From assembly GCF_000327485.1 (NCBI RefSeq), contig NC_019943.1, positions 992,001 through 1,056,000 on the forward strand: a stretch of DNA of 64,000 bases, read 5' to 3'. Source of the stretch: Methanoregula formicica SMSP (lineage in GTDB: Archaea > Halobacteriota > Methanomicrobia > Methanomicrobiales > Methanospirillaceae). The notes beneath the pieces were generated by a model. The model had not been told where the DNA came from. It searched no databases and saw only the letters and a list, made by a program, of their open reading frames with translations. Below, piece after piece: positions 30,549 to 61,546 of this stretch. Position 1 is the stretch's first letter. The number at the start of each line of letters is the position of its first letter. The position numbers were made by a program, and so were the translations under genes.

Positions 30549-31694
30549 ATGGAAAATAAAAAAACAATTGAAACAAAGGACATTAATAGAGTCCCTCCTA
30601 AAGAAAAGTTGACTCAAAAAAGAAATCCTATTTCTCAATCAATTATCCCAATGTATTCTCTTGAGCGATCCTTAGAGATTGCCAAGGTAATTTGTGATCA
30701 GTTCGCGGCGAAAGGAGGCGAACCTCATTTAATCGCTAAAACTATGAATTTATCTCCTACTAGTAATACTTGGCGGATGTTGACAGGTTCAGCTATTGCT
30801 TATGGAATTACTCAAGGGGGCTATAAGGTACCAGAAATAACGATCACACCTTTAGGCAAATCAATAATTATTCCTACTGAAGATGGGGAAAAAGAAAATG
30901 CCTTAGTGACTGCAGTTCTAAAGCCTAAAATTATCAATGATTTTTTCAAAAAATACGATAAAGCAAAATTACCTACTAAAGATATTGGTAAAAATGTCTT
31001 ATTTTCATTGGGAATTCCGCAAGAACGAACGGAAAATGCATTTGACGTTATTGTAGAAAATGGAAAGTTTTGTGGAATAATTACTGAAACAAAAACAGGA
31101 TACTATATCTCTGTAACTACTAAACCGACCACAAAAAATCATGATGATCACGAATCGTTAAAAGATTCGACTATTCTTGATACAGAAATGGAGGACTCCG
31201 GTGTAGTTCAAGCTGTTCAAAAAATTTCCGAAAAATATAGTCCGGTAAAAACAGAGTGTGTCGAAAAAGTAAAAAATAATCGTGTTTTCATCTCACATGG
31301 GAAAAATAAACAAATTGTTGATCAATTAAAAGAAATCATAAAATTTGGAAAATATGAACCAATTATTAGTGTGGAGCGGGAATCAACATCAAAACCCGTT
31401 CCTGATAAAGTTCTCGATGATATGAGATCTTGTTTTGCTGGTGTAATCATAATCAATAATGAGGGAGAATTAATCGATCAAACTGGCAAGACACATAAAA
31501 AAATTAATGATAATGTATTAATTGAAATAGGAGCCGCCTTAGCCCTGTATGGACGTAATAATATTTTATTGGTTCAAAATGGGATAACACTGCCATCTAA
31601 TTTACAAGGATTATATCGCTGTGAATATGAGGGAGAAGTTCTGGATACAAAAGCTTTGATAAAATTATTAACAACGTTTAATGAGTTTTCATAA
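30549..31694 (+). CDS. TIR-like (Pycsar/CBASS-effector type) domain protein
   Basis: A 381-residue protein. The C-terminal 125 residues (from about 245) match the TIR-like nucleotide-binding family (PF10137 type): opening strand VFISHGKNKQIVDQLKEI, middle VLDDMRSCFAGVIIINN, then INDNVLIEIGAALALYGR with the likely catalytic Glu near 325, then LPSNLQGLYRCEY. Members of this family act as NAD-degrading effectors in some antiphage systems. The N-terminal 200 residues look like one or two winged-helix domains (SLERSLEIAKVICDQFA, TITPLGKSIIIPT), joined by a charged linker. AT-rich codons mark it as acquired. I see no cyclase or kinase partner, so the trigger is unknown. Confidence 0.75.
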   Translation: MENKKTIETKDINRVPPKEKLTQKRNPISQSIIPMYSLERSLEIAKVICDQFAAKGGEPHLIAKTMNLSPTSNTWRMLTGSAIAYGITQGGYKVPEITITPLGKSIIIPTEDGEKENALVTAVLKPKIINDFFKKYDKAKLPTKDIGKNVLFSLGIPQERTENAFDVIVENGKFCGIITETKTGYYISVTTKPTTKNHDDHESLKDSTILDTEMEDSGVVQAVQKISEKYSPVKTECVEKVKNNRVFISHGKNKQIVDQLKEIIKFGKYEPIISVERESTSKPVPDKVLDDMRSCFAGVIIINNEGELIDQTGKTHKKINDNVLIEIGAALALYGRNNILLVQNGITLPSNLQGLYRCEYEGEVLDTKALIKLLTTFNEFS

Positions 31695-31761: not shown

Positions 31762-32043
31762 GTGATAGATCTCTCAACATTTTTTCTCATGATCACAACT
31801 TGGTATAATCAATCCATCAATAGCCCATATCTCCCATTTTATATCACTTTTATTTTCTGTTTTTATGCGGCAATTTTGTTATTGGAAAAAATGAATTTTG
31901 TAAAAATACTAAATTCAATTTCTGATTGGTTGGATACAGAAGTGGTTCGAAAAGGAAAAATCCGCGTATTTAAATATTTTTTTCCTTGTGTTGTTTTGTA
32001 TAGGATGTTTATTCTCCATCATGATTATTTGGGTTATTACTGA
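31762..32043 (+). CDS. N-terminal part of a split membrane protein (frame 1)
   Basis: This 93-codon frame starts with GTG or a later ATG and has a hydrophobic segment (YLPFYITFIFCFYAAILLLE) followed by a basic amphipathic stretch (WLDTEVVRKGKIRVFKYF). It reaches a T7 run at 31977-31983, after which its own residues look less natural. The next frame continues with a proper membrane segment and the enzyme domain. Removing one T would join both into a single protein of about 370 residues, so this is probably the broken front half of the gene below. Confidence 0.5.
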   Translation: MIDLSTFFLMITTWYNQSINSPYLPFYITFIFCFYAAILLLEKMNFVKILNSISDWLDTEVVRKGKIRVFKYFFPCVVLYRMFILHHDYLGYY

Positions 32044-32851
32044 ACAAAACACAGTCACTGATTCATTGAATGACTATTTTGCAATAAAATATCAGAGTGA
32101 AATCAAGCCTCAAAGCGAAATTGAAATTAATCGCATTGTCAATGAAGCTAAACAAATTTCCAACCTTTCTGAAAGATTCGATAAAATTGCTGAATGGGAG
32201 ACGAAAAATTTTACAGATATCTATTGGCATGGAGTTAGTTTGAAGAGTATGAATCCATATGCCAACACATATTCATATGAATCCAAAGGGAAAATTCGAG
32301 CAACCCGTTCTTCATCTGTCAAAGCCCCTTATGCCGAAGATCCTTACTGGATTACATATTACAAATTTGGTGCATGTGGCGAAGAGTCTGCTCTCTTTGC
32401 AAATGTCTCTAATCGAACAGGCATAGTGTCTCGCCCGATTATTTTAGATCTTGGACATTGGGAATATGGAATTGTGCCGGTGAAAACTGGAAATCATGTT
32501 TTCCTTGAAGTTCAATTGAACAATGATGAATGGTATTTCTATGATCCAACTGTCTATGGTGCAGATCATGTTTTGAATGAAAGCCCCTGCAAAAATAATG
32601 CACCTTGCCAAAACCGTTGGTTCGGGAAACCAGAACAATATAGTTATTTTGCTTCTTGGCAGGTACTTCGAATTTATCGTGGGGATACAGGAGAAGATGT
32701 GAGTGATCGTTACACTCGTTTGTCAGAATCGATCATAAATGCAAAAAGGTTTTTTTCGTCAAAGTACTGTTTGAATGTTGGTATGAAATCCATAAGTCTA
32801 CTGAAACTCAGCAATATACATATTTTTAAGAATAATTCTCATTTTACTTAA
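31988..32851 (+). CDS. Membrane-anchored transglutaminase-like protein (downstream part)
   Basis: A 287-codon frame that opens with a membrane segment (CLFSIMIIWVIT) and continues with a soluble domain. A transglutaminase/papain-like triad can be read in order: Cys near residue 129 (FGACGEESALF), His near 157 (LGHWEYGIV) and Asp near 185 (WYFYDPTVYG), each at the start of a predicted strand or helix as in that superfamily. It overlaps the preceding frame by 56 bases. The natural start is uncertain, since the GTG at 31988 lies inside a likely frameshift joint. It shares the AT-rich composition of the TIR-like gene and may form a pair with it. Confidence 0.6.
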   Translation: MLFCIGCLFSIMIIWVITEQNTVTDSLNDYFAIKYQSEIKPQSEIEINRIVNEAKQISNLSERFDKIAEWETKNFTDIYWHGVSLKSMNPYANTYSYESKGKIRATRSSSVKAPYAEDPYWITYYKFGACGEESALFANVSNRTGIVSRPIILDLGHWEYGIVPVKTGNHVFLEVQLNNDEWYFYDPTVYGADHVLNESPCKNNAPCQNRWFGKPEQYSYFASWQVLRIYRGDTGEDVSDRYTRLSESIINAKRFFSSKYCLNVGMKSISLLKLSNIHIFKNNSHFT

Positions 32852-33254
32852 TCGAATTATCAATTTTAACAGGTATATTGACCATTATCAATCTCTCCAT
32901 CAACCTCTATTCCCACTCCACCTCTTTCCTCCATCCTCAACCCCCCATACCCACCTATTCTTCCCCTATCTGAAATCTAAAAACACTCCTCCCATTGGCT
33001 GCATTTTCCGAAATGTCGAACCCTGAAAGGGTGAGACACGAGAAGACATCAGTCTTCGAGTTCTGCCTGCCCCCCCTCCCCTCTACACCAATCCGGGTCC
33101 CCTGCGGCCTCGGCCTGGCGCTGCCCACACCGCCTCTCCCCTTCACGCTGCCGGTTGATGATAAAGCCCTTACGCATGCGTCAGGAAAACCGGGTGATGA
33201 TTTTGTCTGAAGGATGGAACAGGAGGGAACTGCGAGCTGGCAGGATACCCCTGC
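32852..33254. other. Gene-free stretch with pyrimidine-rich tract
   Basis: The region holds a C/T-rich tract (about 32890-32965), a small hairpin GAAGAC-ATCA-GTCTTC at 33042-33057 and CCCTGAAAGGG nearby. Frames are short and low-complexity; I see no supported gene. Composition returns to GC-rich across it, so it forms the right edge of the island. Confidence 0.6.
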
Positions 33255-33599
33255 TCACGCATTTTCCCGGAGCAGCACCTTCACGGCATCCGCAAGCGGA
33301 GCGAGATCGTGCCTGCTCGTCTCCCAGATGATCGCTGGGCTGATCATGAAATAGCCGTGCACCATCTTGTCCCGCATTCCCGCGAACTCTTTCCAGGGAA
33401 CCTCCGGGTGGCGATCGATAACCTCTTGCGGGATCTTTTTTATGGCCTCCCCGATTACGACAAAATTGAGAATGATTGCCTCGCGGGTTTTCCGGTCAAC
33501 GAGCAGTTGCTCGTATGTCATGTCCTTTGTGTAGGACTGGATCGCAGAGACAGCATCGTCAATGTCCGTAAGGTAGAGTTTCACCTCACGCTTAGACAT
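33255..33599 (-). CDS. hepT: HepT-like HEPN toxin
   Basis: A 114-residue all-helical protein of the HEPN (DUF86) family. The RNase motif R-x4-H-x-Y is present as RDKMVHGYF, including the Tyr that partner MNT antitoxins modify with AMP. Family members cut RNA as dimers. Its ATG overlaps the stop of the nucleotidyltransferase gene by eight bases, the standard layout of HEPN/MNT pairs. Confidence 0.88.
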   Translation of the reverse strand: MSKREVKLYLTDIDDAVSAIQSYTKDMTYEQLLVDRKTREAIILNFVVIGEAIKKIPQEVIDRHPEVPWKEFAGMRDKMVHGYFMISPAIIWETSRHDLAPLADAVKVLLRENA

Positions 33600-33888
33600 A
33601 GATGACCTCGGCGAGTATATCCTGCCGGATCACCGGTTTTAAGGAATCTGAAGTCACCAGATCCACCTGCGTTCCGAGTTTCTCGGAGAGGAAATTTTCA
33701 AGCCGCATGAAGGTGACAAACCCCACCGGCTTTGAGAACTCCACCAGCAGATCGATATCGCTTGTGCCCGTTTGTTCATCGCGGGCAACTGAGCCAAACA
33801 CCCCGATTGTCTTGACCGAATACTCTCTTGCAACATCTCCTTTGAGTTTTTTTAAGGAGGAGAGAATATCCTGCCGGGTGTATCGCAT
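33592..33888 (-). CDS. mntA: MntA-like nucleotidyltransferase antitoxin
   Basis: A 98-residue minimal nucleotidyltransferase. The signature IGVFGSVARDEQTGTSDIDL gives the Gly-Ser and the Asp-x-Asp metal ligands (GSx10DxD). Members neutralise HepT by adding AMP to its active-site Tyr. It is the first gene of the pair; a minus-strand TATA-like AAAATATTTATTAATAG lies about 35-45 bases upstream of the ATG. Confidence 0.9.
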   Translation of the reverse strand: MRYTRQDILSSLKKLKGDVAREYSVKTIGVFGSVARDEQTGTSDIDLLVEFSKPVGFVTFMRLENFLSEKLGTQVDLVTSDSLKPVIRQDILAEVIYV

Positions 33889-34416
33889 GATGGTACCTAT
33901 GTAACAGTGGGTGATGAACTATTAATAAATATTTTACGAGGATGTGTCCGCGAGACCCTCAGGCCCGGCCTTGCCCACACCCCATGTACAAACCCCGGCA
34001 GTTTTACTCAGTGTTCCCAAGATCTCAAACAATACGCGTTTTCCCGCTAATCTGACGATTTTACAGGGATTTATAAAACGGTAATGTACGCTTTCCTTTG
34101 GCCGATTGCCTCTTCCCCTGTCCCTTACCTGTGCCAGGGCGACTTTTGCAAGTCGAAGAACGCGTTTCGCGTTCTTCTCCAGCTCATACTACCCTTAAGG
34201 TAGTATTTCGCTTCTGGAAAGCGCCTAAAGAGACACGTGTTCCGGGCGGGAATTTGACTTATTTCGGTGATATTGGGGTGAAATGGGGGTTTCCGGAAAT
34301 GTGAGACATGGAAAATCGCGAATAAGGCAGAAAAATGGTGGGGGGAGGGGGGATCCGGGGCAGAAATGGGCCCGGATGGGATCACCTCAGTTATGGAGGT
34401 GTGTCCAGCCTCTCAC
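33889..34416. other. Gene-free stretch with clustered hairpins
   Basis: No credible gene is seen. The middle part (34141-34223) is a row of four stem-loops listed separately. The left part carries the promoter of the HEPN/MNT pair. Confidence 0.6.
34141..34223. repeat. Four consecutive hairpins
   Basis: In order: GACTT-TTGC-AAGTC (34141-34154), GAAGAACGCG-TTT-CGCGTTCTTC (34155-34177), ATACTACC-CTTAA-GGTAGTAT (34186-34206) and CGCTT-CTGGA-AAGCG (34209-34223). All stems are perfect and adjacent, leaving almost no unpaired base. This is far more structure than spacer DNA normally shows and suggests a structured RNA or a small mobile palindromic element. Confidence 0.6.
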
Positions 34417-36063
34417 CTACCCCACCGGTATATCAGTTGAGATCCCGGTATCCGTCTTTCCTTCAATACTTTCGGCAACGCCCGGGTTGTTCTGCTTGAA
34501 CACTTTCATCCATGCCTTCATGGCTTCACGGTCATTTGCTGCGAGTGCTGCCTGCACACCGCTGATGTCATAGCCCGACTCGCCGAGTTTCGCGCTGACC
34601 TCTTCGACCGGCATGCGGTCCGGCTTTTCCAGCCCGGACTTCTGCTTGTGCGCCGTTACGTTGCCGTTTTGGATTTTCTCAACGGGTTTCTGTCCGGTCA
34701 CGTTGCCGGCGTTCTGCTTTCCGCCCGGACCCTTCTTTGTTGTATTGCCCTGCAGGCCGGTCTTATTGGTACCTGGCTGCTGGCTCACCAGCTGCTGGGC
34801 CGCAATCCATGCGGACATCTGCGTGCAGTCATAGGATCCCACGCCAAAGAGGAAGTCCGAGGGGACATTCTGCGGGTAGGAGATCTGCTGCGAGTACAGG
34901 TACGCACCGCTGCAGGTGTAGCCGTCGAGATTCCGGAGGGCAGTCATCTTCTGCTTCTGGTCGCTTGTCAGGGTCTGGCCTACTTCTGCGAAGTGCGTTG
35001 CGTACCAGTACGAGATCTCGCCGTCGAGTTCGCCATAGCGTTCTGAGAGGCTTCTGACCGTAGTCTCATCGATCGTCTCTCCACTCAGCGCCTTCCGGAA
35101 CTCGGTTGCGATCGCGGTCCTCGTTGCAACGATCTCGTTCAGGTCCGCACGCTGGAGGTCGACAAGGCCGGTGATTTCGGATCGCTGGGTGTCGGTGAGC
35201 AGCGCGAGGAATGCCTCGCCGGAGTCACCGGTCAGGGTCGTGCTGATGGAATAACCTGCATTGCCCATGGCCGGGCGGTCCTTCATGTAGAACGAGCCGA
35301 AGTAGGTTCCCTGGCGCTCGGGACAGAAGTAGACATCCCTGTCAACCGATCCCGCATACCACGCAAACATCTCGCTTGCATAGGTGCGCATCGCAACCGA
35401 ACTGCCCTGCCCGCTGCTCTTCAGCGCTGCGGAGGCATCGACACCCGGCATGTCGGCCATACCTTTGGTTGCCATCGTGTCAAGGTATGCCCGCTGGCTC
35501 TCGTTCAGGGACCGGATCACACTCGCATAGGTCTTTGCCCGGGCAATGCTGATGCTTGCATCAACATCGTACAGCTGCGCCGAATAGGCTTTGACCGCTG
35601 CCTGATCAAGGCCGCTGCTGCCGGACGGGATATTGCCCTCCAGCTGGGCACGGAACGCGTTCATCAGCGGGTACCGCATCAGGGCGTACTGCGTGGTGAG
35701 CGGTGCCTCGGTTGTTGCAAGCGCAGAAAACTGCGCCCGCTGGTCATCGTTCAGGATATACAATACATTATCCGAGATCCGGGTCACGAAGTCCGTGTTG
35801 TGTCCCATCTGCGTTGCATCATTGTCCCGCAGGTACTGGAAGCCGGCATAGTCGGCAACCTTGCCGGGCGGGATGAATGTGTCGCTGCACGAATCGCCGG
35901 ATAAAAAGGCAAGCGCGTCGAATGCAATCGTTGCCTGCTGCCCGCGGTCGGACAGCGTCTGTTCCATGGTGTACTGCTGGCCTGCTGCACTTGCTGCCCC
36001 CACGGCAAGTGCCATGAGGCAGATTGCGACAGCAAAAAAGCCGGCAATGGTTCCTGTTCTCAT
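34417..36063 (-). CDS. Secreted helical protein with four LTxxQ-like repeats
   Basis: A 548-residue protein with a signal peptide (ending VGAASAA near residue 27). The mature part is helical and carries four motifs of the form L-(T/N)-x-x-Q-(R/K) with a following hydrophobic pattern: LNDDQRAQFSAL (104), LNESQRAYLDTM (186), LTDTQRSEITGL (289) and LTSDQKQKMTAL (375). They resemble the LTxxQ motif of the periplasmic chaperones Spy/CpxP. The last 120 residues are Lys/Gly/Asn-rich with a final helix. A good Shine-Dalgarno (AAAGGAGAT) precedes the ATG. Export is clear; chaperone function is only suggested by the motif. Confidence 0.75.
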   Translation of the reverse strand: MRTGTIAGFFAVAICLMALAVGAASAAGQQYTMEQTLSDRGQQATIAFDALAFLSGDSCSDTFIPPGKVADYAGFQYLRDNDATQMGHNTDFVTRISDNVLYILNDDQRAQFSALATTEAPLTTQYALMRYPLMNAFRAQLEGNIPSGSSGLDQAAVKAYSAQLYDVDASISIARAKTYASVIRSLNESQRAYLDTMATKGMADMPGVDASAALKSSGQGSSVAMRTYASEMFAWYAGSVDRDVYFCPERQGTYFGSFYMKDRPAMGNAGYSISTTLTGDSGEAFLALLTDTQRSEITGLVDLQRADLNEIVATRTAIATEFRKALSGETIDETTVRSLSERYGELDGEISYWYATHFAEVGQTLTSDQKQKMTALRNLDGYTCSGAYLYSQQISYPQNVPSDFLFGVGSYDCTQMSAWIAAQQLVSQQPGTNKTGLQGNTTKKGPGGKQNAGNVTGQKPVEKIQNGNVTAHKQKSGLEKPDRMPVEEVSAKLGESGYDISGVQAALAANDREAMKAWMKVFKQNNPGVAESIEGKTDTGISTDIPVG

Positions 36064-61498: not shown

Positions 61499-61546
61499 AC
61501 AGGTCATCAGACCTGTGAGTGGTGAAACGTGATTTCAGTCACGTTT
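61499..61546. terminator. Two hairpins between convergent genes
   Basis: ACAGGTC-ATCA-GACCTGT (61499-61516) and AAACGTGA-TTTCAG-TCACGTTT (61525-61546) are perfect stems. The second overlaps the stop codon of the minus-strand CBS-ParB gene at 61535-61537. They probably end transcription from one or both sides, though no long T run follows. Confidence 0.45.

Follow-up and report, generated by a model that had tools for sequence, protein, structure and literature searches.

A hairpin cluster in Methanoregula formicica is probably one copy of a mobile double-hairpin element of the Methanomicrobiales

What are four perfect hairpins doing, one beside the other, between genes of the archaeon Methanoregula formicica SMSP? 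The window (the whole stretch of DNA analysed, 64,000 nucleotides) carries them at 34141–34223, where an earlier note had placed them, and their stems can be read directly from the sequence (Table 1). The description of the hairpins as almost without spacers is roughly right, with gaps of 0, 8 and 2 nt, and the surrounding DNA is gene-free as claimed: a 528-bp gap separates open reading frames (ORFs) at 33592–33888 and 34417–36063, both on the minus strand, and the two short overlapping ORFs called within it look spurious. The 10-bp stem was also recovered by a repeat search, with 100% complementarity and a loop of 3 nt. Folded as RNA, the 101 nt at 34135–34235 reach −37.4 kcal/mol on the plus strand and −41.4 kcal/mol on the minus strand (z of −4.1 and −4.8), and 0 of 200 shuffles were as low on either strand; folded as DNA, the z values are −5.1 and −5.3, respectively. 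Nowhere else in the window are perfect hairpins so densely clustered: the site scores 46, against 44 for the runner-up real cluster and maxima of 34–42 in 10 block shuffles. Hairpin density at the site by itself is only a modest excess over chance.

Table 1 Hairpins, double-hairpin units and flanking features of the window
Feature	Position	Strand	Basis or remark
Hairpin a, stem GACTT/AAGTC	34141–34154	+ (reading)	Read directly
Hairpin b, stem GAAGAACGCG/CGCGTTCTTC	34155–34177	+ (reading)	Read directly and repeat search
Hairpin c, stem ATACTACC/GGTAGTAT	34186–34206	+ (reading)	Read directly
Hairpin d, stem CGCTT/AAGCG	34209–34223	+ (reading)	Read directly
Double-hairpin unit, whole R1 match	34151–34213	− (folding GA strand)	37.7 bits, E 7.3e-9 in 64 kb
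H1, GAAGAACGCG-AAA-CGCGTTCTTC	34155–34177	−	GA on both sides: 34178–34179 and 34153–34154 (TC on +)
H2, ATACTACC-TTAAG-GGTAGTAT	34186–34206	−	GA on one side (34184–34185, TC on +); GA plus an extra A on the other (34207–34209)
Short outer helix of H2, GC/GC	34182–34183 with 34210–34211	−	Sequence and analogy with other units
GACTT-TTGC-AAGTC hairpin	34141–34154		Abuts H1; outside conserved unit
CGCTT-CTGGA-AAGCG hairpin	34209–34223		Overlaps H2 bracket and right flank; outside conserved unit
Right flank of the unit	34214–34378	+	Ends match a second own-genome locus
Second unit, GTC-GA-ACCCT-GAA-AGGGT-GA-GACAC-GA-GAAGAC-ATCA-GTCTTC-GA	33014–33061	+	R1 20.9 bits, E 4.6e-4 in 64 kb
Lone GA/GA-bracketed hairpin ACAGGTC-ATCA-GACCTGT, possible fragment	61499–61516	+	Bracket scan; no R1 match

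The longest stem belongs to a dispersed repeat. When the 161-nt site region was compared with its own genome (2.82 Mb, one contig), most partial matches covered this hairpin, and the genome-wide stem search that the earlier note had proposed recovered 18 copies of the pattern TCGAAGAACGC-N0-6-GCGTTCTTC, with 0 in a reversed-pattern control. Of 60 genomes searched, 7 (the own one among them) contain the pattern, and these all belong to the same genus; in named genomes, 54 of the 80 loci listed, from 98 stretches in all, belong to Methanoregula or other Methanomicrobiales. Five of the 26 loci outside the Methanomicrobiales were viewed, and these bacterial look-alikes resemble terminators or other palindromes. 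In Lachnospiraceae UBA7050 (three loci, L052, L057 and L067), a GAAGAACGC/GCGTTCTTC hairpin stands beside a second hairpin, in some cases followed by T runs, a terminator-like arrangement. A looser pattern, TCGAAGA-N6-24-TCTTC, gave 155 matches compared with 4 in the reversed control, with many different inner stems among the matches listed. The earlier note had reasoned that stems differing from one another could not be a simple repeat. That reasoning misled: the longest stem is itself repeated, and the family repeats an architecture in which stem sequences change while pairing is kept.

The architecture, first proposed from arrays aligned by eye, reads n4-GA-[H2]-GA-n4'-GA-[H1, GAAG..CTTC]-GA on the purine-rich strand (the minus strand at the window site; hereafter the GA strand). 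The unit thus comprises two hairpins, each bracketed by GA/GA, and a short third helix formed by n4 and n4'. A scan that assumed no H1 sequence, over 464 kb of the own genome (20 evenly spaced stretches plus the window), found GA/GA or TC/TC flanks on 15 of 61 maximal perfect hairpins of at least 8 bp, compared with 1 of 25 in a Markov control. The order of the hairpins is polar: a hairpin of at least 5 bp ends within 10 nt 5' of H1 on the GA strand in 119 of 172 loci and on the other side in 36 of 172, at a spacing of 6–7 nt between H2 and H1 in 107 of the 119, in a set of loci mostly fetched as holders of H1 and therefore not a genome-wide rate. The GA/GA bracket was not asked for in these upstream partners, and 91 of the 119 have it. 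The outer helix, likewise not selected for, reaches at least 3 bp in 76 of 83 distinct units (shuffled mean 33.9, maximum 44 in 2,000). Loops of the GNA, GNNA or NTCA type close 99 of 155 H1 and 90 of 119 H2 hairpins on the GA strand, compared with 1 and 2, respectively, on the opposite strand and 13 of 112 unbracketed control hairpins. The commonest loop, ATCA, is to our knowledge not in any loop class known as specially stable. The pairing tests on H1 and H2 begin from hairpins picked for pairing; the bracket, the outer helix and the loops alone are independent of this selection. Full-text searches, with thin coverage of subscription journals, found no published description of such units in these archaea.

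The covariation analysis in relatives suggested by the earlier note bears out pairing that is maintained as the stems change. The 161 perfect H1 hairpins have 46 different 5' arms. A covariance model (R1) built from 12 units gave 220 matches in 1.24 Mb. When the 150 best of these are aligned to R1, 97.7% of cells are paired and 476 carry changes on both sides, compared with 123 when shuffled; this covariation leans towards structure, because fitting to the model shaped the alignment and the seeds had been picked for their perfect stems. Orthologous loci give direct examples: CAGGTC/GACCTG in one species corresponds to CCAGTC/GACTGG in another (L186 and L123), and GATGTGC-GTCA-GCACATC to GAAGTGC-GAA-GCACTTC (L183 and L058), with pairing kept in both cases. 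The latter unit lies, in two species and with different stems, in a spacer flanked by a tRNA gene and a 5S-like rRNA gene (genes identified by eye).

Within this grammar, hairpins b and c of the window are H1 and H2 of one unit on the minus strand. The window copy departs from the consensus by an extra A (an H2 bracket of GAA/GA as read from the sequence, one base off GA/GA), a 5-nt loop and an outer helix of 2 bp, shorter than usual. Fifty-three nucleotides of it (34153–34205) match a Methanoregula-group locus (L100) at 90.6%, a match that spans nearly the unit limits alone, the flanks of the two loci being unrelated. On the right, the flank ends at 34214–34242 and 34305–34377 match own-genome positions 1879502–1879530 and 1879592–1879664; the match begins one base past the end of the unit, and the locus at 1879502 is without the unit. 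No match was found between the left flanks of these two loci. By eye comparison only, CGACTTTTGC in the hairpin at 34141–34154 resembles the empty junction of the host repeat described below, GCCGACTTTTGCGC. The second unit of the window was independently recovered by the GA/GA bracket scan; a third R1 match, at 1451–1502 on the minus strand (17.1 bits, E 0.0056), with some of its pairs broken, is not claimed as a unit. The orthologous site of the window copy was not found: no full relative of the adjoining 548-aa gene turned up among 39 genomes of the genus, in which the search returned one 41-aa match (E 7e-4), and the DNA flanking the copy gave short matches only in 40 genomes. Lack of conservation and of a second copy in the genome, which the earlier note would have counted against its observation, is contradicted by the further copies and their conservation.

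The GA strand appears to be the strand that folds, judging from mismatch types, loop types and folding energies. H1 hairpins with one or two mismatches have G.T in 15 cases versus A.C in 4, and G.A or A.G in 22 versus C.T in 2; the corresponding H2 counts are 8 G.T, 4 A.C, 4 G.A and 1 T.C. When each strand is folded by itself, the GA strand has the greater stability in 90 of 90 units with DNA parameters and in 85 of 90 with RNA parameters (from a set of 91, one unit with an N being left out). The GNA triloops, and those GNNA tetraloops whose third base is a pyrimidine, fit stable DNA loops. For the folding form, single-stranded DNA is tentatively preferred to RNA, since the units are not tied on either strand to the direction of genes and the own genome yielded no reverse transcriptase of the RVT_1 family (PF00078).

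The units are mostly intergenic and have no orientation preference. With gene positions from a simple purpose-made caller, which covers 73% of the sample and misses genes, 7 of 137 distinct H1 lie inside predicted ORFs, 25 are at locus edges and 105 could be classified by the direction of the upstream and downstream genes on the GA strand (++ 27, −− 27, +− 31, −+ 20). Copy number differs sharply between close relatives. With R1, the own genome (G000) has at least 55 units, and 45 of 100 genomes of the order (own included) have a match, nine of them with at least 40 units (G000, G002, G014, G019, G029, G031, G061, G072 and G083). No unit was found in 11 of 39 genomes of the same genus, including the closed genomes G011 and G021, under strict filters that lose weak matches. 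In a tree of 30 genus members built from one gene, with 5 high-copy genomes among them, at least three changes of the high-copy label are needed. Among 246 genomes of the phylum 14 match, and all those with two or more matches belong to the Methanomicrobiales; outside the order, five phylum genomes have one match each (E 2e-6 to 9e-4).

Presence and absence at corresponding positions point to movement. The own genome and G031 share a collinear 120-kb block at about 90% identity, in which a 167-bp gap with a double hairpin in the own genome faces one of 13 bp in G031, a difference of about 154 bp, including the unit; the comparison took in about 200 kb of each of two stretches. A segment of about 196 nt with a unit, including an identical run of 145 nt, lies in non-orthologous gaps and in opposite orientation in two species. 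The host repeat around this copy contains the unit at three more own or G031 loci and is without it in G031 (contig C32, near 34,416–34,565) and in G018, a genome with a single, weak R1 match (E 0.0041). The junction is clean, reading ..GCCGACTT/TTGCGC.. where empty and ..GCCGACTC-[unit]-TTGCGC.. where filled, and a target-site duplication, as in a MITE of a DNA transposon, was not clearly seen at the one filled/empty junction compared. This pair could instead record loss of the unit by hairpin-mediated deletion. In a comparison by eye of four orthologous loci, elements are shared at most of them, which makes much of the spread old.

Neighbouring copies were considered as parts of a larger inverted unit, since a first count gave an exact 8-nt overlap in 9 of 29 facing pairs; that count came from a hand list of 166 of the 220 R1 matches, from which duplicates, truncated hits and matches with E above about 4.5e-4 had been removed without a strict rule. 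A systematic recount on H1 alone gave 18 convergent, 26 tandem and 15 divergent pairs, with a gap of 0 in 5 of the 18 convergent pairs. All arrangements being common, there is no single larger unit. Tandem arrays with a unit every 68–80 bp, whose H1 is TCGAAGACCTTCGGTCTTCTC or TCGAAGATGCTTCGCATCTTCTC, occur in a Methanomicrobiales relative (G088; L197 and L198).

The enzymes that move comparable repeats were sought in the same genomes. The Y1/RAYT/IS200-type transposase domain (PF01797) is present in 15 of 100 genomes searched, with 0 in the own genome and 0 in all nine genomes with at least 40 units, which rejects a REP/RAYT system. SINE-like retroposition by an RVT_1 enzyme was rejected on the absence of PF00078 from the own genome; among the nine high-copy genomes only G083 has this domain, once. 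Intrinsic terminators do not agree with the missing orientation preference of the units. Strings of CTGATGA that recall a hammerhead ribozyme are, by eye, merely loop plus stem, and the GA/GA brackets are without the 3-nt bulge of an L7Ae-type kink-turn.

Of the readings offered by the earlier note (a structured non-coding RNA, a replication or recombination site, or a degenerate palindromic mobile element), the palindromic mobile element comes closest; 'degenerate' is the part that fails, as the unit is ordered and has many relatives. We consider it probable that a non-autonomous mobile double-hairpin element, dispersed in the Methanomicrobiales and under selection on its fold and not on its sequence, has one of its copies at this site. 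It is a real, ordered and probably mobile repeat, of which the earlier reader saw one copy; its many copies with a common grammar, the covarying stems, the patchy distribution and the presence or absence between near species are shown by the data above.

The covarying stems, the wobble-type mismatches on one strand, some GNRA loops and the copy in the tRNA/5S-like spacer would also suit a transcribed GA strand, with the double hairpin acting in the transcript as a structured non-coding RNA or as a processing or terminator signal. Against such a role, the 105 classified H1 are not linked to the direction of genes; there is no Rfam match in the window at gathering score, nor any at E ≤ 1 in 21.6 kb of arrays, and the units are nearly absent from several close relatives. 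We regard a role in RNA as unlikely, and the gene-linked form raised by the earlier note is disfavoured by the lack of orientation preference and of an Rfam match. Another explanation is a fixed protein-binding or nucleoid site on the chromosome, amplified and maintained under selection, with no invader. BIMEs bind gyrase or IHF, and an intergenic, structured sequence in tens of copies with compensatory changes at orthologous places would be in keeping with such a site; numbers that range from at least 55 to 0 within one genus, and at least three changes of label across 30 genomes on the one-gene tree, are not, and we hold this explanation to be rather less likely still.

The lowest probability goes to the hairpins being a mutational by-product, made and perfected by quasi-palindrome correction and fork slippage with neither recognition nor selection. 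These processes would account for perfect stems, for tandem duplications (L188 compared with L105) and for the head-to-head copies that abut in the convergent pairs. They leave unexplained the fixed GA/GA brackets, the one-sided loop classes and the unselected outer helix, as well as the recurrence of the window unit at unrelated loci in other species, and we think them an improbable cause.

For the mobile double-hairpin element, recognition of the fold in single-stranded form and mobility in trans can be proposed. The GA-rich strand, when single-stranded, would fold into two hairpins, each closed mostly by a G..A-type loop, and the GA/GA flanks would form sheared G.A pairs. A host or mobile-element activity might then recognise the fold, not the sequence, and copy the module or move it, both to intergenic DNA and into copies already present, which would yield mosaic arrays. 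The stronger version, in which the single-stranded DNA fold is itself the unit of selection and is recognised and moved by something other than a Y1 transposase or a reverse transcriptase, is tentative, and we rate it as doubtful.

Bacterial REP/BIME elements offer one comparison. They are intergenic palindromic units in mixed orientations, clustered and numbering tens to hundreds per genome; they depend on RAYT (Y1) transposases, and REP elements have a conserved tetranucleotide foot of the GTAG type. The archaeal units are likewise an intergenic, palindromic, multicopy repeat, but they occur without PF01797 in the own genome and in the nine genomes with at least 40 units, their stems vary in sequence and their conserved flank is GA/GA. 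The double-hairpin or repetitive hairpin-forming elements in the mitochondria of fungi, algae and sponges are short, intergenic, multicopy and optional between close relatives, and are not known to have an enzyme or a function (PMC2800124, PMC7218506). Two adjacent hairpins per unit and presence or absence between close relatives are shared features. The archaeal units differ in residing on the chromosome of the Methanoregula group, not in an organelle, and in their GA/GA brackets, polar H2-then-H1 order and outer helix, a comparison in which the mitochondrial sequences are represented by description only. The element may work like both groups by analogy, and membership of either is not claimed.

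If this interpretation holds, GA-bracketed double hairpins whose stems are free to change while pairing is kept would mark a structure-specific mobilisation system, so far undescribed. Short hairpin elements were known before in mitochondria and bacteria; here the family is archaeal, reaches high copy number and follows an explicit structural grammar. A family without a Y1 enzyme makes it testable whether fold alone, not sequence, can be the recognition feature of a mobile element, and as the order includes closed genomes with and without the element, the enzyme can be sought by comparison.

Another repeated, intergenic and structure-forming family is described from the same archaeal order, the recurrent G-quadruplex repeats of Methanomicrobiaceae (PMC8044849). 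With a G-run motif and a C-rich partner, these differ in sequence and structure from the units described here, and no double hairpin is named in the passages on them. A G-run tract, TGGTGGGGGGAGGGGGG, at 34334–34352 and a C-run tract at 33070–33083 each lie near a hairpin unit of the window, and they may be related to those repeats.

The genes beside the site are of some interest in themselves. A low-GC island at 30–33 kb (31–41% GC) encodes a CAP12/Pycsar-type TIR protein at 30549–31694 (+; PF10137, E 8e-25), with a weak transglutaminase-like neighbour at 31988–32851 (+); the TIR gene looks like an imported defence gene. Adjoining the hairpins, the minus-strand genes at 33255–33599 and 33592–33888 encode a HepT-like RNase and an MNT-type nucleotidyltransferase, a HEPN/MNT toxin–antitoxin pair, and the 548-aa product of the minus-strand gene at 34417–36063 is an LTXXQ-motif protein.
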